Shown here piece after piece: positions 5,069 to 29,200 of a DNA stretch of 64,000 bases. Source of the stretch: Fimbriimonas ginsengisoli Gsoil 348. GTDB taxonomy: Bacteria; Armatimonadota; Fimbriimonadia; Fimbriimonadales; Fimbriimonadaceae. Each line of letters starts with the position of its first letter. The first letter of the stretch is position 1. The position numbers and the translations under genes were made by a program. Below the pieces are notes generated by a model. That model worked only from the letters and a program-made list of their open reading frames with translations, made no database searches and was not told the DNA's origin. The stretch spans positions 5,084,001-5,148,000 of the forward strand of contig NZ_CP007139.1 of the NCBI RefSeq assembly GCF_000724625.1. The letters are read 5' to 3'.

Positions 5069-6882
5069 GCAGAAGTCTTGTCCACATCCCCAAGTGGAAT
5101 AAAGAGAAGCGTGAGAAGTCCGGGAATCCCGAACAGAAGCGCCGCCGTGAAGAAGCTTACGTAGCCGAAGTTCGACTGCACGATGCCGCTTACGATTCCC
5201 GCAACCTGGATAAACAGCGCGCCGATGCCAACCCCCAGCGCGTAATGCGCGGTCTTATACGAGCCACGTTGGGCGACCCGTTGAAGGAAGATGATGTAGC
5301 CGGCGAACCCGAAACCGTAGCCGAACTGCTCCACAAAGTCCACCCCGAACATCGCCTGGTAAGGCGGGTGTGCCAACGCCGCCCACAGGTACAGAAGGTT
5401 CGGAAGGTGCATGCAGATCGCGATGTACCAAATACTCTTGCGCAGTCCAAATCGAGACACGATCCAGCCCCCCGCCAAACCACCGAGGACGATCCCGAAC
5501 ACCCCGACCAACCCTTTGATCGTGCCCACAAGCTCGGTCGAGAAGCCGAGCCCTCCCTTATCGGAGGCATCCTTGAGAAATAGCGGCGACACCTTCACGA
5601 CCATCGCCTCGCCAAACCGGTAGAGCATCAAAAACGCCAGAATCGGCACGATTCCCGGTTGACGGAAGAAGGAGCTGAAGGCATCCCCCATCGCGGTTCC
5701 CCGAATTGACCGCCGCGCCAACGTCAAAGAAGTCACGAAAACCGCTCCCGCCAGCATGAGCTGAACCACCTCGGCGAAAGCGCCCGACGTCCCGACCGGA
5801 ATCCCGAGCATCGTTGGGTTGCCCGCCAGCATCCATCCCTTGAGCGGCCCAGTGGCAGAACCGTCCCGCAACGACCAAATGGCATTCGCGCTCAAGCGAA
5901 CGATCGCATTGGCGAAGAAGTATCCCCCGAGCCCAATCGCCACCACCGTCAGCGTCCGGCGAACATTTCGGCCGAACTCGCCGGGTACCTCTTCCGCTTC
6001 GGTATCGAGCTCGGGGCGCGGAGTGGTCCGCCGCTCCACGAGGTACATGAGACCGTACAAAACCGCCCCGAGCAGAAGAATGATCGACCAAGCCGTGCGG
6101 CGGCTAAATCGGGCTGCAACCTGGACCGGCGTAACCGACGCATCCGCATCGAGCCGGATCTGCCCTGCCGGCTTTCCATCCGCCATCACCGTTCCATCCG
6201 GCTGCACAGCCAGCCCTTTCACGTCGGGACTAACCGCGATCGGAGGATCGAACGCGTTGCCGTTCTCATCGGTCAATCCGCCGCTCGTGATCTTGAGCGT
6301 CGCGGTCTGAGCGGTTACCGGTTTCTTATCCTTGATGAGATGCAGAGACCCCGTCGACGGGGACACCTTGGCTTCTGGGAACGCCATCAGTAGTCCGGCG
6401 AACAGCACCAGAAGCCCCTTCGCGAATAAGGTCCCAAGCCGGTAGCAGGTCGTCTGCACGCCGGCAAACTTCGCCTGCTCGTCTTTCGGCATGGCAAGCA
6501 GATAGAACCCGTCCATCGCCGTGTTGCAAAGCGCGGAAAAGATCGCCGCCGTAAGAAACGCCGCCAACGATAGCTCGAACGCCGCCGGCAACTGAAGTAC
6601 GAACGGCGCCGCCATCAACGCCGCGGTGATGAACATTTGGCAACGCATCACCCACTGCCGCTTCGTGCGGGTCAGGTCCACCAGCGGCCCCAACAGGAGT
6701 TGCAAGCTCCATGGAAGCGCCACGATCGAAGTCCAGCGGGTAATCGGCTCGTTCGCGATCCCCAAGTCTTTGTAGACGATCGTCGCCACGTCCTGTACCA
6801 GCGACACCGGGATCGCCTGCATGAAGTACAGCAACGGAACGAACAGCCAAGGGTTCAGCCTCTTTGCCGGCTCGGTCTGCAT
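5065..6882 (-). CDS. MFS permease, AmpG-like, with extracytoplasmic insert
   Basis: A 605-residue major facilitator protein. The first half (PWLFVPLLYFMQAIPVSLVQ...ALPWSLQLLLGPLVDL) and the FAGVQTTCYRLGTLFAKG segment match the AmpG/muropeptide-permease branch. Residues about 169-255 form a polar insert between membrane segments, in which residues 195-244 (..PPIAVSPDVKGLAVQPDGTV..GQIRL) resemble a flagellar hook/basal-body type beta segment. About six more membrane helices follow to the C-terminus. It is the first gene of a two-gene operon with the serine hydrolase. Import of anhydro-muropeptides is the likely role by family and by the hydrolase partner, but other sugar-peptide substrates are possible. 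Confidence 0.85.
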   Translation of the reverse strand: MQTEPAKRLNPWLFVPLLYFMQAIPVSLVQDVATIVYKDLGIANEPITRWTSIVALPWSLQLLLGPLVDLTRTKRQWVMRCQMFITAALMAAPFVLQLPAAFELSLAAFLTAAIFSALCNTAMDGFYLLAMPKDEQAKFAGVQTTCYRLGTLFAKGLLVLFAGLLMAFPEAKVSPSTGSLHLIKDKKPVTAQTATLKITSGGLTDENGNAFDPPIAVSPDVKGLAVQPDGTVMADGKPAGQIRLDADASVTPVQVAARFSRRTAWSIILLLGAVLYGLMYLVERRTTPRPELDTEAEEVPGEFGRNVRRTLTVVAIGLGGYFFANAIVRLSANAIWSLRDGSATGPLKGWMLAGNPTMLGIPVGTSGAFAEVVQLMLAGAVFVTSLTLARRSIRGTAMGDAFSSFFRQPGIVPILAFLMLYRFGEAMVVKVSPLFLKDASDKGGLGFSTELVGTIKGLVGVFGIVLGGLAGGWIVSRFGLRKSIWYIAICMHLPNLLYLWAALAHPPYQAMFGVDFVEQFGYGFGFAGYIIFLQRVAQRGSYKTAHYALGVGIGALFIQVAGIVSGIVQSNFGYVSFFTAALLFGIPGLLTLLFIPLGDVDKTSA

Positions 6883-6985
6883 CGGATAAGGATAACCCTA
6901 TCGACCCAGCACCGGAACCGGAAAGGCTGCTCCAGCAACCTAACGAATATAAGAGGCCGATCAAACCTCTTGGGGAGAGCAAGAG

Positions 6986-7234
6986 ATGAGCAAACGATTT
7001 GAAGAATCCCAAAACCCGAGCTTCGTCGATCTAGTGACCGCCTATCAGCTCTTGGGCATCGACAACCTACTCGGTCAGCCCGGAAAGCACACCGCGTTTG
7101 CGCAAGGCGGATGCACGGACGAAGTCGTGTTTCACGTCGTTCCGGGCGAGTGGTCCTCCGAGGATTTCGTCCACCTCATGGAGATCGCCGTCTCCACGAT
7201 TTCCACACCCGCGACCCTTTCGCTGGCCGCCTAA
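6986..7234 (+). CDS. Small conserved-looking protein, function unknown
   Basis: An 82-residue protein with a good ribosome site (GGGGAGAG about 8 nt before the ATG). The sequence is soluble, slightly acidic, and has no signal peptide, cysteine pair or repeat. Its last residues (ISTPATLSLAA) are hydrophobic. It is divergent from the AmpG-like permease, with about 100 bp between the two starts. A double-hairpin repeat follows the stop and may end transcription. I do not recognise a family; the call rests on the ribosome site and codon use similar to neighbours. Confidence 0.65.
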   Translation: MSKRFEESQNPSFVDLVTAYQLLGIDNLLGQPGKHTAFAQGGCTDEVVFHVVPGEWSSEDFVHLMEIAVSTISTPATLSLAA

Positions 7235-7241
7235 CAAGTGG

Positions 7242-7286
7242 CACGGGCGGCTCGCCCGTGGGTCTCAGGGGCGGCCCGCCCCTGAG
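7242..7286. repeat. Double-hairpin repeat, copy 1
   Basis: Two adjacent perfect hairpins, CACGGGCGGCTCGCCCGTG followed by GGTCT and CAGGGGCGGCCCGCCCCTG. The same two-hairpin layout occurs at 33094-33137 and, inverted, at 63572-63614. It lies just after a stop codon, so it could also act as a transcription end or mRNA stabiliser. Confidence 0.75.
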
Positions 7287-7321
7287 AAAATAGTCAGCCC
7301 ACATCGGGTAACCCCGTCCGT

Positions 7322-8287
7322 CTACCAAGCGTAGTGCTCGGGCGAAGTTTTGAAGCCCGGGAAGATCTCATCGATCTTCTTCAGGGTGTCCGCGTCGAAC
7401 TTGATCTCGACCGCCCGAAGCGATCCGTCAAGCTGGGCCATGGTGCGGGGGCCGATAATCGGCGCCGTCACCACAGGTTGATGCAGAAGCCATGCCAAAG
7501 CGGCATCGGCTGGCTGCTCTCCGATCTCGGCGCATAGGGCGTACCACTTGTCGAGCTGGTCACCCTTCTTCTCATAGGTGTCCTTCGCCCAACCTTCGGT
7601 CCGCCGCCCTTCCGCTTCCGGCCGGCCACCCAAAACGCCCCCGCCGAGCGGGCTCCAGGGGATCATTCCGAGGCCGTAGTCGAGACAAGCCGGCACGACT
7701 TCCATCTCCACGGTGCGTTCTAGCAAGCTGTACTTCGACTGCTCGCTGACGAGCCCCATGAAGTGGCGCTGCTTGGCCGCCTCGTTCGCCTTCGTGATGT
7801 GCCACCCGGCGAAGTTCGACGAGCCGGCGTAAATCACCTTTCCCTGCTGAACGAGGATCTCGTACGCCTGCCAGATCTCCTCCCAAGGAGAATCCCGGAA
7901 GACGTGGTGCATTTGATACAGGTCGATATAGTCGGTCTGCAAACGTCTTAGCGACGCTTCGCACGCCCGGCGAATGTGCAGCGCGCTCAGCCGGGCTTCG
8001 TTGGGCCAGTCGCCCATATCGCCGTACACCTTGGTCGCGATCACTGTTTTCTCTCGTCGCCCGCCCCCTTGTGCGAACCAGCGGCCGATGATTTGCTCGG
8101 TGATCCCTTCTCCCTTTTTCCAGCCGTAAACGTCGGCGGTATCGAAGAAGTTGATCCCATGCTCCAGCGCCCGATCCATGATCGCAAAGCTATCCGGCTC
8201 GGTGGTTTTGGGACCAAAATTCATCGTCCCAAGGCAAAGGCGGCTGACTTTCAGCCCGGTGCGTCCTAAATTCGTATATTCCATCAT
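7322..8287 (-). CDS. Aldo/keto reductase
   Basis: About 320 residues from the paired ATGs at 8287/8284 (MEYTNLGRTGLKVSRLCLGTMNFG is the classic start). The AKR catalytic tetrad is visible: Asp and Tyr in FFDTADVYG, Lys in VIATKVYG and His in LYQMHHVFRD. The NADPH-binding end IIGPRTMAQLDGSL is present too. The frame continues upstream by nearly 200 codons, but that part is antisense to the molybdoenzyme gene and lacks AKR character. The enzyme would reduce carbonyl substrates in the cytosol; it belongs to the YajO/Tas-like general reductases. Substrate unknown. Confidence 0.92.
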   Translation of the reverse strand: MMEYTNLGRTGLKVSRLCLGTMNFGPKTTEPDSFAIMDRALEHGINFFDTADVYGWKKGEGITEQIIGRWFAQGGGRREKTVIATKVYGDMGDWPNEARLSALHIRRACEASLRRLQTDYIDLYQMHHVFRDSPWEEIWQAYEILVQQGKVIYAGSSNFAGWHITKANEAAKQRHFMGLVSEQSKYSLLERTVEMEVVPACLDYGLGMIPWSPLGGGVLGGRPEAEGRRTEGWAKDTYEKKGDQLDKWYALCAEIGEQPADAALAWLLHQPVVTAPIIGPRTMAQLDGSLRAVEIKFDADTLKKIDEIFPGFKTSPEHYAW

Positions 8288-8361
8288 CCCCCGTCCCACC
8301 TCGACCTCGAGGCGGCACTTGGATCTACGTATCGCAACGTAAGCGGTTAGCGCTCCGGAGC

Positions 8362-8407
8362 CCCCTCTCCCTCCTTCGGATGCATCGTGCCGAACGAGGG
8401 AGAGGGG
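8362..8407. repeat. Long inverted repeat between divergent genes
   Basis: CCCCTCTCCCTC and CTTCGG on the left pair with CCGAAC and GAGGGAGAGGGG on the right around a ten-base loop. It lies between the divergent starts of the aldo/keto reductase and the molybdoenzyme. No T-run follows either arm, so it is not a simple terminator. Confidence 0.65.
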
Positions 8408-8470
8408 TTGGGGGTGAGAGAGTCCGGAAGAGCCGGTCTCCAGAGCGGCCAGCGGCGAACGTAGGTTCGC

Positions 8471-8496
8471 ATCATCGGCGAGGGCGCCGACGCTAC
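8471..8496. repeat. GGCGAGGCGCCGACGCTAC-family repeat, copy 1
   Basis: Reads ATCATCGGCGAGGGCGCCGACGCTAC overall (given here only by its span and its core CGGCGAGG-GCGCCG). Close copies lie at 33163-33191 and, inverted, twice at 60714-60776; a shorter one is near 54484. It sits just upstream of the molybdoenzyme start at 8517. Confidence 0.65.
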
Positions 8497-8516
8497 TTGC
8501 GGTACTTTCAATAGCG

Positions 8517-9224
8517 ATGCTCCCCAAGCGAACGATCAAACGCGTGGTCCCCGGCTCCGACCGAGCCGAGGAGGAAGCGAAGTACCAGCCTGGCGACCCG
8601 CCCGGGCCCGAGAGTGCCCCGCCCGGAGCGATCATCTCGTCCGACACCCGAAGGGAGAACCGAATCCCGCCCGGCCAAGCCCGGACGCGGAAGTGGCCGG
8701 TCCTCGACGCCTTCGGCTCGCCCGAAATCGACCTCGACGAGTGGGAGCTCAAGATCGGCGGTCTCGTGAAGGAACCCAAGACTCTCGATCTGGAGGCCTT
8801 CCAGGCGCTTCCCCGCGCAAAAGTCTTCGCCGACATGCACTGCGTCACTCGTTGGTCACGCCTTGGCAACCTTTGGGAAGGCGTTCCAACGAGCGCGCTT
8901 AAGGAGCTCGTCGAGATCGACGCTAAAGCAACCCACGTCCTCGCTTTCGGCTACGACGAGGGGTGGACGACGAACGTGCCGATCGAGGAATTTTTCGCGG
9001 AAGACGTACTTCTCGCCGACCTCCACGACGGCCGTCCCATTCCGCTCGACCACGGCGGCCCCGTCCGCCTCGTCGTCCCCCGCCTCTACGCCTGGAAGAG
9101 CGCAAAGTGGATCCACGCCATCGAATTCCTTAGCGGCGACCAAGCCGGCTTCTGGGAGAAAGGGGGATATCACATGCACGGCGATCCTTGGAATGAAGAA
9201 AGATTTGGGTCCCGTTGGTGGTAA
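8517..9224 (+). CDS. Sulfite oxidase-like molybdopterin oxidoreductase
   Basis: A 235-residue protein of the oxidoreductase molybdopterin-binding family (sulfite oxidase/MsrP fold). Cys109 in ADMHCVTRWS is the expected molybdenum thiolate ligand, and the following LGNLWEGVPTS and HGGPVRLVVPRLYAWKSAKW segments are the conserved cofactor-binding loops. Unlike MsrP it has no Tat signal or leader, so it is probably cytoplasmic, as in the YuiH-like branch. Partner heme subunit MsrQ is not adjacent. The next gene begins 4 bp after its stop and may be co-transcribed. The electron donor and substrate cannot be told from sequence. Confidence 0.9.
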   Translation: MLPKRTIKRVVPGSDRAEEEAKYQPGDPPGPESAPPGAIISSDTRRENRIPPGQARTRKWPVLDAFGSPEIDLDEWELKIGGLVKEPKTLDLEAFQALPRAKVFADMHCVTRWSRLGNLWEGVPTSALKELVEIDAKATHVLAFGYDEGWTTNVPIEEFFAEDVLLADLHDGRPIPLDHGGPVRLVVPRLYAWKSAKWIHAIEFLSGDQAGFWEKGGYHMHGDPWNEERFGSRWW

Positions 9225-9227
9225 ACC

Positions 9228-9764
9228 GTGCATCCTACGAGACGGCCTGACGTCTTAACTCCGATGGAACTTGTTCGCTATCGTCCCGGAGAGGCGATCC
9301 GTTGGCTTCAGACCGGGGCCGAGAACATCCGCCGGGGCGCCCAAGCCAAGGGGCGCGCGGCCGCTACCGCCTCCGCTCCCGACGCCCGCGCTTTTGGCGA
9401 AAACATTAAGAACGCCGCCGGCGCCCTCATCGACTACAGCAAAGGGGCCTATGCCGACCTGATGCACCGTCAGGCCGACGCGAGCGAGTACGTTCTCCAC
9501 GACGACTACTTCGACATCGTCCGCGGCGGCAACATCAAGACGATTAACTATGATCGCGTCCAGTCGATCGAGTTCACCAAAGACCGCGCGGTTATCAACC
9601 TCGAGAAGGGGACCTCGCTCACGATCAAGCCGTTCGCCCACCTCGTGGCTGGGCGAGCGAAAGTTCCGGTCGGTTGGTCCCGCAACGGCATCGAAGTCCC
9701 GTTCGAGCTCCTCATCGAGGAGCTCGCGGCGAGATGCAAGGTCGAGTTCGAAGAGAAGGACTAA
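9228..9764 (+). CDS. Soluble protein of unknown function
   Basis: 178 residues from the ATG at 9228, or 166 if the ATG at 9264 (MELVRYRPGEAIRWLQ) is used; the latter looks more natural. The first half is basic and Ala-rich, the second half (YFDIVRGGNIKTINYDRVQSIEF...AVINLEKGTSLTIKPFAHL) alternates short beta strands and resembles a PH-like or SHOCT-associated strand pattern, which I regard as a guess. No signal peptide or membrane segment. It follows the molybdoenzyme by 3 bp and its end overlaps the convergent S41 protease end by 4 bp. No family recognised. Confidence 0.7.
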   Translation: MHPTRRPDVLTPMELVRYRPGEAIRWLQTGAENIRRGAQAKGRAAATASAPDARAFGENIKNAAGALIDYSKGAYADLMHRQADASEYVLHDDYFDIVRGGNIKTINYDRVQSIEFTKDRAVINLEKGTSLTIKPFAHLVAGRAKVPVGWSRNGIEVPFELLIEELAARCKVEFEEKD

Positions 9765-11059
9765 ACGCCCTTAAGCTTTGCGATCGCCTTCTCGATGGCC
9801 GGGTCTGGCTTCCCTTCCTCGGCCTTCTCCGTAACCTCGACATCGGGAACGATCGGAGTCTTTTCGAGCCGAACCCCGTTCTTGGACACGTAATCGCTGA
9901 CCGGGAACTGCACCTCGAAGCCGTACGGCAGACGGCGGAACATCGAGGCGAGCACCGCGCCCGCGCTCTGCGCGCCCACGATCGGAGCCCCTAGGTTTTC
10001 ACGTAGCGCCATCGCGCAAATCTCGCTCGCGCTGGCGGAACCGCGGTTCACGAGCACCGCTATTTTCCCGACAAACGGGTCGACCGGCATGTGGCGAGTC
10101 TTGAACTGGTCTTTGACCTCCTTCGCGATCGCGATCGGATCGGCCGACTGGTCTCCGGCATGGTTCTCCGCGTACTGGGCCGCCTCCGAGCGATTGATGA
10201 ACGTTCCCACCACCGTCTGATCGGGCAAGAGCATATTCAGGAGGTGCTGGAGGTTGTTGATAAGCCCTCCCCCGTTCGATCGGAGATCGAGCACCAAATA
10301 CTTCGCCTTTCCGGCCTCGGACATGAGCTTCGCGATGTTTTCCCGCGAGTAACCGCGTGAAAAGCTATGGATCTTCAAGACCGCGGTATCGTCGCCCATC
10401 CAGGTCAGCGTATCTTCGCGAACCGTCGAGTATCGCTCGCGCTTGATCTTGAGCTCCCGCTCCTTCCCATCCTTGTCGCGGAGCTTCAGAGTCATCTCCG
10501 TCCCTTCGTCACCCAGAAGGGCGTCGGAGGCCTCCGGCAACTTGCCGTCTACGGAGACGATGGTCTCCCCCTGCTTGATCCCCGCCACCTCGGCCGGGCT
10601 CTTCGGGAAGACCGACATGATGGTGAGTCCGTCCTTGTCCGGCCGAGTGCCGACTCCAATTCCGATTGTCGAAGTTCGAACCCGGCTTTGCGCCGCCCGC
10701 GGGGGCAGGAACCGAATGTGGCTTACGCCGAACTGACTTAGCGCCCGATTGACCGCCCGCGCGAAGTCGGTGTCTTTCTCCGCCTTGTCGATATCTTCCC
10801 GCTGCTTCTCCAGAAACTCCGGCCATTTCGAGAGATTCACACCCGGAACGAACGCCTGCTTCAGGACGACGTTGCCGAGCTCCGACAAGATCTCTTCTTT
10901 TCGCTCCTTGGTGAGAGGTTCCGTCTTCGGGGCCTCGGGGCCGGTCACGAATGGATTGTTCGGCAGCGTGTTCGGAGGCGAGGTCTGCGCGCGACCCGTG
11001 GCCAACGCCAAAAACATGGCCGGCAGCAGCAGGCCGACGCGGAAGGCGGATTGACGCAT
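9761..11059 (-). CDS. S41-family peptidase with PDZ domain (Ctp-like), secreted
   Basis: 432 residues from the ATG at 11059, which gives a clean signal peptide (MRQSAFRVGLLLPAMFLALATGRAQ); a GTG at 11098 would add 13 residues. A PDZ domain occupies about residues 125-215 (GIGVGTRPDKDGLTIMSVFPKSPAEVAGIKQGETIVSVDG). The S41 catalytic domain follows, with VLDLRSNGGGLINNL and the serine nucleophile in VNRGSASASEICAMAL. Tail-specific proteases of this type cut exported proteins at the C-terminus in the cell envelope. Gene stands alone, tail-to-tail with the preceding gene. Family assignment is strong; the particular substrate is unknown. Confidence 0.93.
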   Translation of the reverse strand: MRQSAFRVGLLLPAMFLALATGRAQTSPPNTLPNNPFVTGPEAPKTEPLTKERKEEILSELGNVVLKQAFVPGVNLSKWPEFLEKQREDIDKAEKDTDFARAVNRALSQFGVSHIRFLPPRAAQSRVRTSTIGIGVGTRPDKDGLTIMSVFPKSPAEVAGIKQGETIVSVDGKLPEASDALLGDEGTEMTLKLRDKDGKERELKIKRERYSTVREDTLTWMGDDTAVLKIHSFSRGYSRENIAKLMSEAGKAKYLVLDLRSNGGGLINNLQHLLNMLLPDQTVVGTFINRSEAAQYAENHAGDQSADPIAIAKEVKDQFKTRHMPVDPFVGKIAVLVNRGSASASEICAMALRENLGAPIVGAQSAGAVLASMFRRLPYGFEVQFPVSDYVSKNGVRLEKTPIVPDVEVTEKAEEGKPDPAIEKAIAKLKGV

Positions 11060-22365: not shown

Positions 22366-25300
22366 TCAAAAATGTACCGGCTGACTATCGCCGATAAGCC
22401 GGAACCCGGCCCAGTAGTAGGGATGCTCTTTTCCGCGAGTCCGCATCACGTTCAGGGCGGCGCGCTGTAGGCTCAGGTCGCACGGCTTACCTGCCTTCAA
22501 CTGTCGGAACAAAGCGACGACCAGAGAGCGGGAGTCGTCTCCCGGGATGTCCCAGCCCGTCGCCACCACGCTTCGGCAACCCGCCGTGCGAAACGCCCAT
22601 GCCAGCCCCAGCAGTCCGTCGCCCCCCCGCATAGGCACCTACCCCGGTTTCGCAGGCAGACAAGACGGCCAGATCGGCCCGCAGTTGCATGGCCGCCACT
22701 TCCCTTGCCCGAAAAACCCCATCGTCTCCACCACCGGCGCCGATACGCAGGTACGAATCCATCGGATCTCGCAAAGCGAATGAGCCGTGGCACGAGAAGA
22801 GAAGGACGCGAAACAAAACCATGTCGCGTTTGGCCCAGTCTTCCCGTTCGGAGGGCCGCACAACTGCGCCCGCAATCTCCCGCCCGACCGCCCTGACCTC
22901 ATCCAATGCCCACTGGTCCATCGGCAGTTGCTGAGCAAACCCGGCGGCATACAGACCCTTCCGGGCTCGAGCCCCGCGCGCCTCCTCCAGAGAGCCCAGG
23001 GACGGTGCAAAGCTGATGGCGAAACGCTCCACAAGCCGCTTCCCACTACCGTCGATCAGCGCAGCGAACGGCACAACGTGAAACGCCGCATCCCCCGCCA
23101 CGACGATGCGGGAGAACCGATGAGGAGCGAGTAAACCCGCCGCCGCGAGGCGGCCCAACAGCATCGAGCCCAAGGCTTTCGCCCCTGCTCGCTCCGACGC
23201 TACCGACTTGCCACTGATGACCGGCGAGCTGTCGGGGCTCCAGTCGTTCATCGCGTGGGTAAGCCTGGCCGGGTCGAAGGGAATCTCGAACGCCTGCGGC
23301 GCGCCATCCGATGGAGAAGCGATCACCAGCGTGCTCCGCTCGTCCAGAAAGGCGTATTGCACAACCAGCGTTCGAGGATGCCGCCGGATGGCCCGCGCAA
23401 TGGGCTCGATTTGAGTGTGCCAGTCCCGACCGAGCGAATCCGGTTCCTTCAGCTTCTGTCCCAGATCGCGACCGCTGTCTAACATCGCCTGGGCTGCTCG
23501 CAAGTCCTTGGACCGCCGCCAGAGCGTCCATGCATAGCGGGCGTAAACGGTTCCCACGAGGTACTGCTGAGCGGAGCCGATGCTTTCAGGCCCTTGGTGA
23601 ACGGACAGTCTCTTCGTGAATAGGTCGAGCGACTTCTCGAAATGGTCGAGAGCGGAAGCCGTCTCCCCCAACTGCGCCTCTATCCACGCCAAGTTGCTCA
23701 ATGCAAGCGCTCGATAGATCCCCGGTCCTCGCAACTTTACGGCCTCATGGGCGGGACCGGAAGCTTCCTGCCAGCGGCGGCGAAAGAGAAGCGCGGAGAC
23801 CTCATTGTTCAGCTTCAGCAGCGACGAAACGCCGGGCACGGCGCCCGCGCCTCCATCTAGCGCCCTCGCCAAGCTGTTCAGATCGAACAACGCCGTCGCC
23901 GCAGAGCTCGGCGACTTTGCCCGCAATGCAAGCCGCTTTGCCTCGGCAAAGCTCTTCTTCGCATCGGAAACGTTGCCGCGTCGCAAGTGCAACATTCCCA
24001 GCGTCACCATTAGGTCGGCTTCCCCGCCAAGGTTCGGATGAGCCGCATAGATGCCACGGGCATCGATGATGTCCTCCTCGGCCCGCGCAAACTCTCCCAT
24101 TTCCAGTCGCGACGCCGCTCGTATATTCAACAGCGAGGCGACGGACAAGGGGTCGAGCTTGGCTCGAAGGGCCAGCGCCCGATCGCTGGCCGCTGCCGCG
24201 CTCTCAAATTCGGTAAGGTGGTAACGGGCGGCGGCAAGATTGTTCTGCGACGCGCCGAATTGGAAGTACCAGGATAGCGGCGAGCCCGAGTTCCCCTCCG
24301 GCAGTTCTCCCAGCACCTTCAGGTGCGCCTCGAACCCCGCTGCCGCCTCTTCGTAATTCCCTTCGTCCCACTCCACCATCGCGGCTTCAAAGTCGAGCAA
24401 TGCCTGCAGATTGGGCGTTTTGCATTCGCGGGTCGCCCTTTGGCCTTCCTGGGCAAGCGCGCGAGCCTCCTTGAAGCGGCCAAGCCGACGATAGGCCGAG
24501 CTACCCCAGTAGCAAGCGCCGGTGTAGCTAACGATGATCGAAGTCCGCTTGTCGCCCGTCTGCTTGTCGTCCCGAAAGAGGAGCCGGCCCGCCTCCAAGG
24601 TCGGCCCGATATACGGAAGCGCCGACTCCGAGTCGTCGAGTGAGACGAAGAATTGGATCGTCTCATATCCCGACCGCAGGATGGCGCTCGGCCGACGCAT
24701 GCGGCGCGACATGGCTACCGTGTCCCGCAACAACCGGGCCGCCTCTGGCCGGTTGGTTTCCTCTAGGCGAAGCGCCTGGTCGAACAGTTTCTGAACCGCC
24801 TCGAGCGTATCTCCCGGTCCAGCCGGCGGAACGACCTCCTGCGCCGATGTGCTCTGGGGGCTCGGCGCGCACTTGCCCGCTGTCCATTTCACGATCCTCA
24901 TGGGCCGGCCCGGCGCCGGTGCGCCGGCGAGCTGGTCGGGCACGATCGACAATTCTTCGCCGACTTTCGCCACCTTCCGCCACTCGTCGAGCCCCCGTCG
25001 AAGGTCGCGGACTTGGGGGCCCGTCACAGCGGCCAGAACCTTGTCCGCCTCATCCAAACGATCGACCTGGAACAGGTCGGCAGCCGCCAAGGCCGGTGCC
25101 CTGCGGATCAGCAGACGCGCCGTAGCAAGGGTTCTTTTTTCTTCGGGACTTAACACGTGAATCCGGAAAATCCGCCACTTACGCTCAGCCTCGGCGCGAA
25201 CAGAATTTGGCTCCAACGGCCTCACACCCACAGCGTACCGGCCGGGCGTCAGCTTGGCGACGGGCTCGAGGATCGCGCGTCCGCCTGCGGTCCGTTGCCG

Positions 25301-26143
25301 AATGGGGATCGCTCGGCGCGGCGCGCCGCCCTCGGTCTCCCATAGTCCCCACTGCCATTGCTTATTCCCTAGACCGGAAAACTCGAAGCGCGGAGTTCTC
25401 TCGGTCAACCCCCGGCTACCCGGAGCCGGGCGGATCAATACCGGGGTCGCGCCCATTCCGCTCGCACTTTTCTGACCGGCATGAAGCATTCGGTTCAGTA
25501 CCGCAAGGCTCGTGCTGTCACTGTAGAGCGGCAGGTAGAGCGACGATATCGCCCCGACCCTCGGGCGCTGAAGCTTGCCCTTAAGGCGATCGACCTCCTT
25601 CTGCAGCTCCTTGATCCGGGCTCTACTGGCGCCATTCTCGGCGGCGTCGGCGGCCAGGTGTTTGAGCTCTTCTTGCGCCCTGGCGAGTTCCTGGCGAGCG
25701 GCGCTCAGCTCGGCGCTTTGGGTTACGAACAGAGAGTCACGCACCGCCACCGGTGGCGAACCCAGGCGACTTCCGCCCAAAAGGAATGCGCCGACTATAA
25801 GGCAGGCGATGAAAAAGTAACGCGTTAAGATTTCCCAGCGTGAGCTGGGCGCCTTGTCCATGACGGGAGCCACGGGGGCCGTATCTCCGATTCGAGGCTC
25901 CTCGGCGATCGGCTTTAGATTGATGGGGCTGACCGGTGGCAGCTTCGGTTCGACCTGCTCCAACGCCAGTTGCTCGCGAGCATCTTCGATCTCTGCCCGG
26001 GCTTGTTCGTCGACGCTCAGCAATGCATCGACTTCCGCCCTCTCCTGATCGCTCATCAAGCCGAGGAGGTACCGGCGGGTCTCCTCGGGACTCAACGCCG
26101 GCTCTCCAGAGCCAAACGCATAGATATCGCTGAAGTCTTTCAT
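22366..26143 (-). CDS. Membrane-anchored TPR-CHAT (caspase-like) protein, frameshifted at a G7 run
   Basis: Starts at 26143, overlapping the sigma-like gene by 4 bp. Residues 1-100 resemble an anti-sigma-like cytoplasmic region (LSPEETRRYLLGLMSDQERAEVDALL); a membrane helix lies at about 105-123; a coiled coil at 141-190; TPR-like helical repeats from about 450 to 900; then a C-terminal CHAT domain. The caspase-like dyad is intact: His1119 in FSCHGSF and Cys1164 in LSACETG. Just after the cysteine the frame breaks at seven C's on the plus strand (22622-22628): the first frame stops at 22487, while the normal CHAT ending (GDGLLGLAWAFRTAGCRSVVATGWD...HPYYWAGFRLIGD) continues in the other frame to 22366. 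Removing one G restores the domain. It may be a sequencing error, true mutation, phase switch or programmed slip. Confidence 0.85.
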
Positions 26144-27279
26144 AGTCCGAGCTCCTCCGATGCTTGTCGTAGGCCGGACCGAGCATCTTGCCCGAACCGC
26201 CGAAGCAGTTTAATGACGAGCATACGCCGACCTCGAAGCCTTAGCACGGGAACATAAGCCGGCTGAACACCCAATAACCTTCCAATCTGTGCATCGTCTG
26301 GCACCGGCAAATTCAGGAGCGCAAGTTCGCGCTCCTCCTTCGGAAGATCGGAGGGCGGGTCCCACTCCGGCAGTGCGTCCACCAGCATCTGGCGGGAGAC
26401 GCGCTTCCCTTCTCCTTCTTTGTCGCGCAAGACCTCGTGCAACCGCTGGTTTTCCGCAAATGGCTCGTCAGCGTCGGACTGCTGGGCCAAAGACGCCAGC
26501 GCCTCATGGATCATATCGGGCGGAGCCTCTCCGAATCGCTCTTGATAACCCAGGTAGGCGGACAGAATGACGAGGTCGCTCAGCTTGAGCAATATCGTCG
26601 CCTTATAACGATGCGGAAGCGACACGATCTCCTCCCAGTATCCGCTGAGATCGGATCGACCATGCTCGCTCGGGGCGCTCGCCGGGCTCGATGGTTCCCG
26701 CACGAGAGGCTCGGCCATTCGCGGCAGTACTCTCACCACTCTGGAGGCAATTAGATCGATGAGCACTTCCCACTGGATGGGGTGTCCGAAGTACATCACA
26801 AATCTTGTCACAATCGTTCGCGTCGTAAGGTGATCCGGGTTTTCTGCGTAAAGCCCGCCTCCGTTGAAGAACCCCTCGAGATGATCCCGAAGCTGGGAAT
26901 GATCCAGCGCCGTGAAAGGCGTGTCCGATTGCTGCCTACGAAGCCCAATAATCCGGCGATTCTTGTCGTCACGCCACGCAATGAGCTCATCCTCGCCAAC
27001 GGTGGAAGGCCCGTGCAAAACGGTATTGAGTCGGTCGCGAAAGACCTTCCGCGCCGAACCGGTCAAAGCCGAGACCAAGCGAAGAACTACCTGTCTCCCA
27101 TAGGCCACGAAGTCCGGGTGCGCCTCCCCTATTTCGGACCCTAAATACCTACGGGTTAGCTCCATCGCGCGATCGGCGACGATATCGGCATCAGCCTCCG
27201 ACGCCCCAGCCTCGCGAGCCAAGCGCTGCAAAATGATCCACGTCTCGCCATATTCCTTTCCGAATTCTGGAAGCGCCAT
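26140..27279 (-). CDS. Highly divergent sigma-factor-like protein
   Basis: 379 residues from the ATG at 27279 (AAGGA about 11 nt upstream); the longer frame to 27687 has no domain. The N-terminal part (WIILQRLAREAGASEADADIVADRAMELTRRYL) resembles sigma region 2 patterns; the C-terminus (LNLPVPDDAQIGRLLGVQPAYVPVLRLRGRRMLVIKLLRRF) reads like sigma region 4, with an HTH followed by a basic helix. The middle 200 residues, including a Ser/Pro-rich linker near 210, have no counterpart in standard ECF factors. Overlap with the TPR-CHAT gene and the position before an anti-sigma-like domain support a sigma/anti-sigma pair. The sigma assignment is inference at the pattern level. Confidence 0.7.
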   Translation of the reverse strand: MALPEFGKEYGETWIILQRLAREAGASEADADIVADRAMELTRRYLGSEIGEAHPDFVAYGRQVVLRLVSALTGSARKVFRDRLNTVLHGPSTVGEDELIAWRDDKNRRIIGLRRQQSDTPFTALDHSQLRDHLEGFFNGGGLYAENPDHLTTRTIVTRFVMYFGHPIQWEVLIDLIASRVVRVLPRMAEPLVREPSSPASAPSEHGRSDLSGYWEEIVSLPHRYKATILLKLSDLVILSAYLGYQERFGEAPPDMIHEALASLAQQSDADEPFAENQRLHEVLRDKEGEGKRVSRQMLVDALPEWDPPSDLPKEERELALLNLPVPDDAQIGRLLGVQPAYVPVLRLRGRRMLVIKLLRRFGQDARSGLRQASEELGL

Positions 27280-27844
27280 TTTCGACTGAGTCCTTGTTAA
27301 AAAAGGACTATAACTCGAAGTCGCATGGTTCTTCCTATCCCGAAAGAAGACGAGCAAAATCCGAGTACCCGACAAGGAAATGGACCGCCGGTCACTAGAC
27401 CGCCAAATTGAGCCGCCGCTGTCTTTGCCCGTTTCCGGGTCATAGGCTTGCGATCTCGAAGGCGCATAAGCCGCCCTTACCAAGGAGTCCCCCAGCGGCC
27501 GCTTCCATTCGAGCTTCCTCGCCCGACGCAAAAACATGCTGTGCCTCCCCGGCCTAATCCGCGCGAGCCTAGCGGTTCTACCGACGAAAGCCCCCTCGTA
27601 TGAAGCCCCGGACAATCCGCTTGACTGCGATAACCAAGGCCACCCAAATCCTCCGCACTGCGCCAAAACCACCTCCCGAAGGCGCATCGTCGCCTTCGAG
27701 TTTCTTAAGGCCGATGCTCCGGCGGTTATTACAGGTGATTTCGAGAATTATGCGAAAACGATTCGAGATCCTCAAGCAACCCTCATCGCAAGGATCGAAG
27801 TCGGTTTACCGTACCTTCCAAATTTCTCGTGCCACGATAGAGGT
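27280..27844. other. 565-bp divergent intergenic region
   Basis: Lies between the starts of the sigma-like gene and the metalloprotease. It must hold two promoters. Open frames cross it on both strands (27536 onward on plus, up to 27687 on minus) but they are extensions of the flanking genes or lack ribosome sites. It is long for this compact genome. I see no clear repeat or RNA motif in it. Confidence 0.5.
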
Positions 27845-29200
27845 ATGAATGCCGATCGCCTCGGTGTGGCGTTGCTTCTCGGAGCTCTTGTCACGGCCGC
27901 CCACGCGGACATCACCATCGACAACTTTGAACCGGGCGAGGTTGTCCGCCACCCGGTGGTGGTGCTCCGCGGGCATGCCGGCGGAGACTCGATCGCCGTC
28001 GGTCAGAGCTGGGCCAACGCCGGTCGGACCCCCGTGGTGAAGGGTGAATTCCGGGCCATCGTTGAATTGAGACCCGGCCCGAACATGATCGTTCTCCAGT
28101 CCGGTCGCGACACCATGAAATACCGGATCGACTACCGCCCCCCAACCTCGCCGATCAAGGTTTTAGCGATTTGGGTGCGGGCGAAGGATGAACCAGAGGA
28201 CGCTTATTACTATTCACCCACCGGCGACCGCCCCCGCGTGCGCGAAAAATTCGATACCGCCTTGAAAGCGATCCAATGCTTCTATGCCGAGGCGATGCAC
28301 GACGCCGGATACGGCAGAAAGACCTTTCCGCTCGAGCTCGATAAGAACGGCAAGGTCGTCGTCCACGTCCTCACCGTCCCCAAGACCGGCGCTGAAATGC
28401 GGGCGATGGAGAACAACGAGTCGTGGAGCTACATCTACGGCCTCCTCTCGAAGGAATTCCCGGAAAACGACACCCATTGGTGCGCCATGCTCGGCTTCTC
28501 TGGCTACGACCGAGGTACCAAGAAATCCCCCGGCCACTACGCCCTCGGCGGCGGCTCCCTCGGCGCTTTCGGCACCGGCAGCATGTCGCACTGGCCCGCC
28601 TCTCTAAAGGAGATCCAGAAGGTGATGACCGACGCCACCCTGCTGGATCCCAACCAAACGTTCGACGACAGCGCCTTCCGCCGGACCGTTTGGGCAAACG
28701 TCTCCACCGCCTGGGGTGCGATGGCGCACGAAATGGGCCACACCTTCGGCCTCCCCCACTCGAACGACCCGTTCAGCGTCATGTCCCGCGGTTTCGACTA
28801 CGTGAATCGAACCTTCGTGGTGGAAGAAGCGCCAAGGGCCGGGGTCGACCATTGGGTCGCCGTCAAGCCCGACGAGCACTCTCGATGGGACAAATACTCG
28901 GCCGCCAAACTCAACTGGAACCCCTATTTCCAACCCGACCTCGTCCGTGACACCACCTCCGCCGCCCCCTCGATCAGAGTCGACGGAGACCAGGTCGTCA
29001 TCACCGCGGCGTCTGGAATCCGGGTCTGGGGAGCCGACCGCGACGACACCACCCCAGTATTTAGCGAGTTCTTAAAGGACGCGCCCACCGAGGTGACAAC
29101 GTCACTCAAAGAGCTTCGGGAGAAGTTCAAGTCTCCTTACCGGATTACCGTCGTAGACACGGCGGGGCGCCAGGTTACAATCGACGAAAAAGGGCAATAA
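27845..29200 (+). CDS. Secreted zinc metalloprotease (HExxHxxGxxH)
   Basis: 451 residues from the ATG at 27845, which gives a signal peptide (MNADRLGVALLLGALVTAAHA). An N-terminal beta domain (ITIDNFEPGEVVRHPVVVLRGHAGG) of about 90 residues precedes the catalytic domain. The zinc site is AHEMGHTFGLPHS with the third ligand histidine in place, and a Met-turn SVMSRGF follows about 10 residues later, so this is a metzincin. A beta-sandwich tail follows. The layout resembles the putative Metallopeptidase_3 group related to yeast YIL108W. A lipoprotein gene starts 9 bp after its stop. Substrate unknown; the extended frame upstream of 27845 is non-coding. Confidence 0.9.
   Translation: MNADRLGVALLLGALVTAAHADITIDNFEPGEVVRHPVVVLRGHAGGDSIAVGQSWANAGRTPVVKGEFRAIVELRPGPNMIVLQSGRDTMKYRIDYRPPTSPIKVLAIWVRAKDEPEDAYYYSPTGDRPRVREKFDTALKAIQCFYAEAMHDAGYGRKTFPLELDKNGKVVVHVLTVPKTGAEMRAMENNESWSYIYGLLSKEFPENDTHWCAMLGFSGYDRGTKKSPGHYALGGGSLGAFGTGSMSHWPASLKEIQKVMTDATLLDPNQTFDDSAFRRTVWANVSTAWGAMAHEMGHTFGLPHSNDPFSVMSRGFDYVNRTFVVEEAPRAGVDHWVAVKPDEHSRWDKYSAAKLNWNPYFQPDLVRDTTSAAPSIRVDGDQVVITAASGIRVWGADRDDTTPVFSEFLKDAPTEVTTSLKELREKFKSPYRITVVDTAGRQVTIDEKGQ

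Follow-up and report, generated by a model that had tools for sequence, protein, structure and literature searches.

A divergent sigma factor gene overlapping an anti-sigma-like/TPR-CHAT fusion gene in Fimbriimonas ginsengisoli: a candidate protease-triggered transcription switch

Introduction

Can a protease, the anti-sigma factor that it would cut and the ectodomain that would sense the signal be carried by a single protein chain, encoded beside the sigma factor that such a cut would set free? The question is raised by a locus of Fimbriimonas ginsengisoli Gsoil 348 (Armatimonadota), whose genome is a single contig of 5,231,762 bases. The stretch analysed, hereafter the window, comprises 64,000 nucleotides (NZ_CP007139.1, positions 5,084,001 to 5,148,000), and positions below are those of the window. 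On its reverse strand, the gene for a 379-residue protein, P0001 (26140..27279, -), runs into that of a long partner, P0002 (in-frame part of 1,218 residues at 22487..26143, -). As an initial annotation made from the sequence alone had stated, the two genes overlap by four nucleotides, the motif ATGA at 26140..26143 (-) combining the stop codon of the former with the start codon of the latter; a ribosome-binding-like stretch, GGAGGAG, lies immediately 5' of this ATG at 26143 (-). The family to which P0001 belongs is here labelled sigmaX.

The best reading of the evidence presented below is that the connection between sigma factor, anti-sigma factor and CHAT protein is real and conserved, and that its last two parts have been fused in this genome. 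Beyond this, we consider it about an even call that the locus is an envelope-signalling sigma locus in which an anti-sigma factor and a TPR-CHAT protease, separate neighbours in relatives, share one chain whose cleavage would free the sigma factor.

Identity of the sigma-like protein

Direct scans of P0001 alone matched no family in Pfam, NCBIfam, PHROGs or PADLOC, and its assignment comes through relatives. A phmmer search with P0001 in 101 related genomes gave three weak matches besides itself, the one in G020 (the Prado032 metagenome-assembled genome) being real; this relative, P0003, weakly matches the extracytoplasmic function (ECF) sigma model TIGR02937 (E 0.0017). A profile of P0001 and P0003 picked up P0005, from genome G125, at E 2.9e-6, and P0005 matches TIGR02937 (sigma70-ECF) over residues 30-354 with E 5.4e-11 and 42.4 bits, for a cut-off of 42.9. 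A family profile was seeded from P0005 alone and iterated over the open reading frames of the fetched loci with P0001 and P0003 excluded, reaching 25 members, in a search space of loci originally fetched with a profile that had included P0001. It matches P0001 at E 7.4e-16, against 0.52 for the best of 1,000 shuffled versions of P0001, and P0003 at E 1.3e-19. In a profile-profile comparison with the canonical ECF sigma factors of the same loci, it aligned over 223 columns with 97.5% probability and E 8.4e-12.

The family alignment covers residues about 52/55-235 and 318-360 of P0001. Its first block runs from the last part of region 2 through a middle domain of about 145 residues into the opening helix of region 4; an insert then precedes the second block, the region 4 helix-turn-helix. 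The region 2-like helices (residues 10-75; 27055..27252, -) are the weakest part, with residues 55-75 aligning to the family profile and residues 10-54 not confidently. The conserved, family-specific middle domain follows (residues 76-220; 26620..27054, -), then the first helix of region 4 (residues 221-235; 26575..26619, -), which ends the first profile domain. The insert parts this helix from the helix-turn-helix (residues 317-361; 26197..26331, -), matched as a second profile domain at an independent E of 8.8e-5. Because the middle domain is aligned across the family, it is a family hallmark and not a feature unique to P0001, which replaces the earlier view that it has no known counterpart.

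By these sequence relationships, P0001 is identified as a divergent member of a long, insert-bearing family of ECF-type sigma factors, a sigma factor by descent, and the middle domain is the conserved mark of the sigmaX family. The sigma assignment of the initial annotation is thus upheld by the profile and not by the predicted fold. An AlphaFold model built from two sequences was poor (mean predicted local distance difference test score, pLDDT, 40.2; predicted template modelling score 0.26), with residues 11-70 as its only well-modelled part (pLDDT 62-81). A Foldseek search with it returned 40 matches at E up to 10, none below 2, with several sigma chains among them. A search of PDB sequences with a three-sequence sigma alignment yielded only sub-threshold matches to ECF SigW and other sigma factors (best E 0.02), and a first scan of the whole collection with a two-sequence alignment found no relative.

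Several candidates were set aside. The other two weak phmmer matches were those in L006 and L008, and the former is spurious, having an internal stop and sitting among unrelated genes. In five of eight genomes, matches to the profile of P0001 and P0003 were weak only: those in L133 and L134 are unrelated, a sixth-family match was in L129, and those in L131 and L132 fall in a short sigma-like reading frame followed, as judged by eye, by a zinc-finger-like anti-sigma gene. A second family of long sigma factors (374-413 residues) is also distinct, its profile matching neither P0001 nor P0003 above shuffled sequences. At L088, L093, L096, L098, L102 and L103 it heads an operon of sigma factor, a protein of about 380 residues and CHAT, the CHAT protein of L093 having the order CHAT-NB-ARC-TPR and also matching the PADLOC model SAVED_CHAT.

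Architecture of the partner protein

The N-terminus of P0002 resembles an anti-sigma domain (residues 16-62; 25958..26098, -) that lacks the zinc-finger Cys/His residues of its relatives. The NCBIfam anti-sigma model NF052375 matches residues 23-125 at E 6.4e-6 and 26.3 bits, under its curated cut-off of 100, and a profile of 16 proteins encoded 3' of sigmaX elsewhere matches residues 22-182 (E 2.4e-4, compared with 0.031 for the best of 500 shuffled sequences). The partner of P0005 carries zf-HC2 above the Pfam cut-off (25.7 bits for 22.2). Together, these matches give modest grounds for regarding the N-terminus of P0002 as anti-sigma-like.

A single predicted membrane helix follows (residues about 102-123; 25775..25840, -), with a hydropathy maximum of 2.1 at residue 105. 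A model of residues 1-430 (mean pLDDT 53) comprises helices at 19-62, 102-122 and 133-191, a sandwich at about 252-330 and a helical tail. The third of these helical segments corresponds to a predicted coiled coil (residues 133-191; 25571..25747, -), modelled as helices 133-167 and 173-191 with pLDDT mostly 59-78 past residue 140. The sandwich is a putative immunoglobulin (Ig)/fibronectin-like beta-sandwich (residues 250-330; 25154..25396, -) of seven strands, with pLDDT of about 61-77 in most blocks and 48 at residues 311-320; a Foldseek search returned CopC as best match (E 1.3e-3) and many Ig-like folds. The helical tail (residues 333-393; 24965..25147, -) is shared with stand-alone anti-sigma proteins: an ectodomain profile of sigmaX partners matches residues 293-387 (E 2.3e-7 for the segment alone and 7.5e-6 in the full-length protein; 1,000 shuffles reached 0.03 at best). 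A reading of the ectodomain as DUF928 had one sub-threshold match only, in L042.

The TPR region (residues about 550-845; 23609..24496, -) is matched by Pfam TPR_12 (E 1.2e-10) and TPR_2, and weakly by an NsdA-family TPR model at residues 550-688; a search of PDB sequences with P0002 gave only TPR matches to PilF (E 0.0088). The chain continues into a CHAT domain (22580..23182, -), whose in-frame part covers profile positions 4-222 of PF12770 at E 5e-24 and 85.7 bits and includes His1119 and Cys1164 in the conserved columns. Of 96 aligned CHAT domains, 95 retain both catalytic residues, among them that of the window and all those linked to sigmaX. The CHAT domain of P0002 is described as a putative protease with a His/Cys pair, not one of proven activity. 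The domain order of the partner, from anti-sigma-like N-terminus through one helix, coiled coil and TPRs to CHAT, is therefore as first annotated, whereas the single chain of 1,250 residues is not: the deposited frame of 1,218 residues stops at 22487, within CHAT.

Genomic neighbourhood in Armatimonadota

A profile search that ignored CHAT found sigmaX in 31 of 291 Armatimonadota genomes. Of the 30 places outside the window, which are not independent since several lie within the same families (f21, f29, f31), 22 have a match to the anti-sigma profile downstream of sigmaX and 10 have a CHAT gene no further than 4 kb away; 0.14 of the latter would be expected by chance (computed over those 26 genomes for which CHAT was counted). 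In six of the ten (L174, L175, L177, L179, L180, L181), the CHAT gene is the next one upstream of sigmaX, in the same orientation and separated from it by 0-81 nt. Twelve further regions were selected by their anti-sigma match: three hold the full order CHAT-sigmaX-anti-sigma (L195, L196, L197), one has CHAT with an adjacent anti-sigma gene (L199), one CHAT with a more distant one (L198) and one sigmaX with anti-sigma (L201), while six hold neither CHAT nor sigmaX. These gene arrangements support a functional link between the sigmaX family and CHAT proteins, in agreement with the initial annotation. The expectation that the gene pair would be kept in Armatimonadota holds in part: sigmaX is usually followed by an anti-sigma gene, but a separate one, and the fusion of anti-sigma and CHAT is not kept, the two being separate genes there.

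Ten of the 11 separate CHAT proteins listed at sigmaX-linked loci begin, as judged by eye, with a hydrophobic, signal-like stretch, which in the eleventh (the second of L169) lies further in. Other partners occur as well. C14 caspase genes are found near sigmaX at L169, L171 and L130; that of L169 (6533-8647, +) lies 11 bp upstream of sigmaX, tying the family to two kinds of caspase-fold protease. At L172 (818-2494, +), a zf-HC2 anti-sigma domain fused to a sodium:dicarboxylate symporter is encoded directly 3' of sigmaX and could be a transporter-sensor for the sigma factor.

Among 60 regions picked by CHAT itself, 32 also have a sigma gene no more than 4 kb from it, mostly for a short ECF sigma factor; included in this count are one overlapping pair (L086/L097), a housekeeping-type sigma gene of opposite orientation (L111) and one region that holds sigmaX (L067). 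For comparison, 40 sigma genes were counted in F. ginsengisoli (PMC4072686), roughly one every 130 kb. At L039 (1727-3262), L055 (8067-9653), L056 (1678-3255) and L058 (1908-3440), sigma-like proteins that carry repeats at their C-terminus are encoded beside anti-sigma genes, with PQQ_2/PD40 matches in L056 and CHAT nearby in L039, L055 and L056; they recall ECF57 as outlined in PMC8999054.

The fusion itself appears confined to the window. The fetched loci contain 98 CHAT reading frames, counting duplicates and fragments, and that of the window alone has an anti-sigma-like N-terminus followed by a membrane helix; the hydropathy rule picked out six more, which by eye have no anti-sigma-like N-terminus. 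The window frame (1,240 residues) is also the longest among the 150 phylum matches listed for the anti-sigma profile, the next having 840. Among the open-access papers listed in searches for CHAT with anti-sigma and for ECF54 with CHAT, none has an entry describing an anti-sigma-CHAT fusion. The one-chain version is thus rare and possibly unique to this genome.

Proposed mechanism and alternative explanations

The mechanism we favour draws on the sequence relationships, the gene order, the His/Cys pair and the presence of M50 proteases. The N-terminal 60 or so residues of P0002 would lie in the cytoplasm and keep the sigma factor inactive, and the single helix would span the membrane. Binding of the sigma factor requires the anti-sigma part to face the cytoplasm, and with one helix the coiled coil and the Ig-like, TPR and CHAT domains are then predicted to lie outside. 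A signal meeting the TPR/Ig part would switch CHAT on, and CHAT would cut near the membrane (site 1), either in the chain of which it is part or in an adjacent copy tethered by the coiled coil. A protease outside the membrane can make the first cut only, so that release of the sigma factor needs a second, intramembrane cut, which an M50 protease may provide, freeing the sigma factor to transcribe its targets. M50 matches above cut-off are present in this genome and also in all 14 control genomes, which makes them weak support. Of the one-piece signal path first proposed, the link between sigma, anti-sigma and CHAT is retained; it needed amendment in that an outside protease alone would not free a sigma factor inside and that the CHAT frame is broken.

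The divergent neighbour of sigmaX (27536-29200, +) encodes a putative secreted metallopeptidase (PF12044, E 4e-65) and may be under the control of the sigma factor. Promoter and terminator scans gave results near chance.

A wider version of this reading adds that the one-piece self-cutting receptor, with the protease outside and the anti-sigma part inside, sits atop a phylum-wide kind of sigma/anti-sigma/CHAT signalling, built on an insert-domain sigma family whose partners are interchangeable: CHAT, C14 caspase, kinase or symporter-fused anti-sigma. We hold this possible, at somewhat less than even chances.

Several observations weigh against the favoured mechanism. The model of P0001 is too poor to show the sigma fold (pLDDT 40, no significant Foldseek match), and region 2.2 of P0001 is degenerate and left unaligned by the family profile. 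The anti-sigma profile match of P0002 is modest (E 2.4e-4), the HxxxCxxC zinc ligands present in P0004 and P0006 are absent from its sequence, and the profile was trained on 16 partner proteins, so that the count of 22 in 30 is partly circular. Not every anti-sigma domain binds zinc. The CHAT frame is split in the deposited sequence, so that the whole domain does not lie within one frame; the one-chain fusion is seen in this genome only; and the CHAT tree leaves the origin of the fused domain undecided, giving no supported grouping of it with the sigmaX-linked ones. In the nearest relative with a sigma/anti-sigma pair (G020), the anti-sigma protein has no CHAT. At 20 of the 30 other sigmaX places, some near contig ends, there is no CHAT within 4 kb, and a protein kinase gene instead of an anti-sigma gene lies directly downstream of sigmaX at L165 (7929-8966, -), by Pfam, and likewise 3' of it at L176 (7980-8936, -), as judged by eye from the sequence.

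The last of these points bear on the alternative that survives best, namely that release does not depend on CHAT as the protease: the ectodomain would sense, a change of shape or another site-1 protease would free the sigma factor, and CHAT would act on other envelope proteins. The many sigmaX places devoid of a nearby CHAT and the existence of kinase, symporter-fused anti-sigma and C14 caspase partners speak for it, whereas the His/Cys pair is kept in every sigmaX-linked CHAT examined and the genes are tightly coupled in six genomes; on balance we judge it unlikely.

Much the same degree of doubt attaches to the view that the fusion gene is truly broken by a real frameshift, leaving CHAT inactive without its last third and the remainder a membrane anti-sigma protein with a TPR ectodomain. 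As written, the deposited frame does end at 22487 and a single chain of 1,250 residues does not exist. The missing C-terminal third is, on the other hand, encoded in a shifted frame (22387..22629, -; profile positions 206-289 of PF12770, E 3.1e-17, 63.4 bits), each of the two pieces exceeding the curated cut-off of 24 bits. The break coincides with a run of seven G (22622..22628, -) shortly past the catalytic Cys; nowhere else in the window is there a G/C run of at least seven bases. The GC fractions at the three codon positions are 0.67/0.50/0.73 before the break and 0.65/0.52/0.73 after it in the shifted frame, compared with 0.75/0.66/0.57 if the old frame is kept, so the shifted frame is the coding one downstream. 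With the profile fit, this indicates that the downstream part, some 80 CHAT residues up to a natural stop, is intact, which argues against a decayed gene. The genome was sequenced by Roche GS FLX at 22-fold coverage with a stated accuracy of 99.994% (PMC4072686), which by our own arithmetic corresponds to about 300 errors genome-wide. A pyrosequencing error at the G run is therefore the simplest reading and, with slippage as a variant, the most likely one; a recent true mutation is less likely. Among close relatives, none that was found holds the P0002 gene: sigmaX occurs in two of the 85 genomes of the family, and in G020 it has no neighbouring CHAT.

Rather less credible is that the sigma factor is itself the substrate of CHAT, or is held at a low level by it. 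This follows what the text on ECF54 in PMC8999054 proposes from CHAT and subtilase neighbours, namely proteolysis of the sigma factor without an anti-sigma factor; P0002 has an anti-sigma-like domain, and its protease is predicted to lie outside the membrane, with the sigma factor inside. That P0001 is a degenerate sigma factor that has lost promoter binding and acts instead as adaptor or decoy towards the anti-sigma part fits its lack of a Pfam or NCBIfam match and its unaligned region 2.2, but is the least probable of all, given the retained region 4 helix-turn-helix and middle domain (E 7.4e-16 overall) and an intact gene coupled to that of its partner.

Comparison with known systems

The closest known system in mechanism is the type III-E CRISPR Craspase, in which the TPR-CHAT protein Csx29 cleaves Csx30, an inhibitor of CASP-sigma, as described in PMC10028731. 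The pathway proposed here likewise links an ECF sigma factor to its inhibitor and to a protease of the TPR-CHAT kind, and Craspase cleavage lifts the inhibition of the sigma factor. Csx29, however, is a separate protein within an RNA-guided Cas7-11 complex and cuts Csx30 in trans, whereas in the window anti-sigma and CHAT share one chain, predicted to be membrane-anchored, with an Ig-like ectodomain. The NCBIfam Csx29 model was not among the P0002 matches at E up to 1.

In the RpoE/RseA/DegS/RseP pathway, as summarised in PMC8103513, a single-span anti-sigma factor with its sigma-binding part inside is cut outside at site 1 and in the membrane at site 2. The same single-span layout is predicted for P0002, and M50 proteases are encoded in its genome. 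The presumed site-1 protease of the window, however, is a caspase-like CHAT domain within the anti-sigma chain, and not a separate DegS, which is a serine protease.

ECF54 is described in PMC8999054 with CHAT, subtilase and carboxypeptidase neighbours, with no anti-sigma factor, and with proteolysis of the sigma factor as the proposed control. Set beside it by description, the window likewise has CHAT near an ECF sigma factor, and differs in its anti-sigma-like domain. In the same genome, a second CHAT locus (L060, C1:1476000-1494000; 5329-10334, +) has a short ECF sigma factor, a zinc-finger-like anti-sigma gene, CHAT and a subtilase S8 in a row, the subtilase after CHAT recalling ECF54; it is a cytoplasmic-looking version of the sigma/anti-sigma/CHAT theme.

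Caspase-fold proteases are genetically tied to sigma factors elsewhere, in metacaspase operons with sigma-70 genes (PMC3501461) and in EACC2-caspase systems with ECF sigma factors (PMC8195603). These, unlike the window, have caspases and not CHAT fused to anti-sigma, and no sigmaX family is described in the passages on them.

Conclusion

To our knowledge, CHAT proteases are common in bacteria and few of them have known substrates. The joining of CHAT to an anti-sigma-like domain in P0002 directly names a likely substrate and output: the cutting of the fused chain may turn genes on. The fusion would provide a naturally occurring, one-component layout for a transcription switch triggered by a protease, and the recurring gene order of sigma, anti-sigma and CHAT suggests that the control of sigma factors is a common job of CHAT proteins outside CRISPR.

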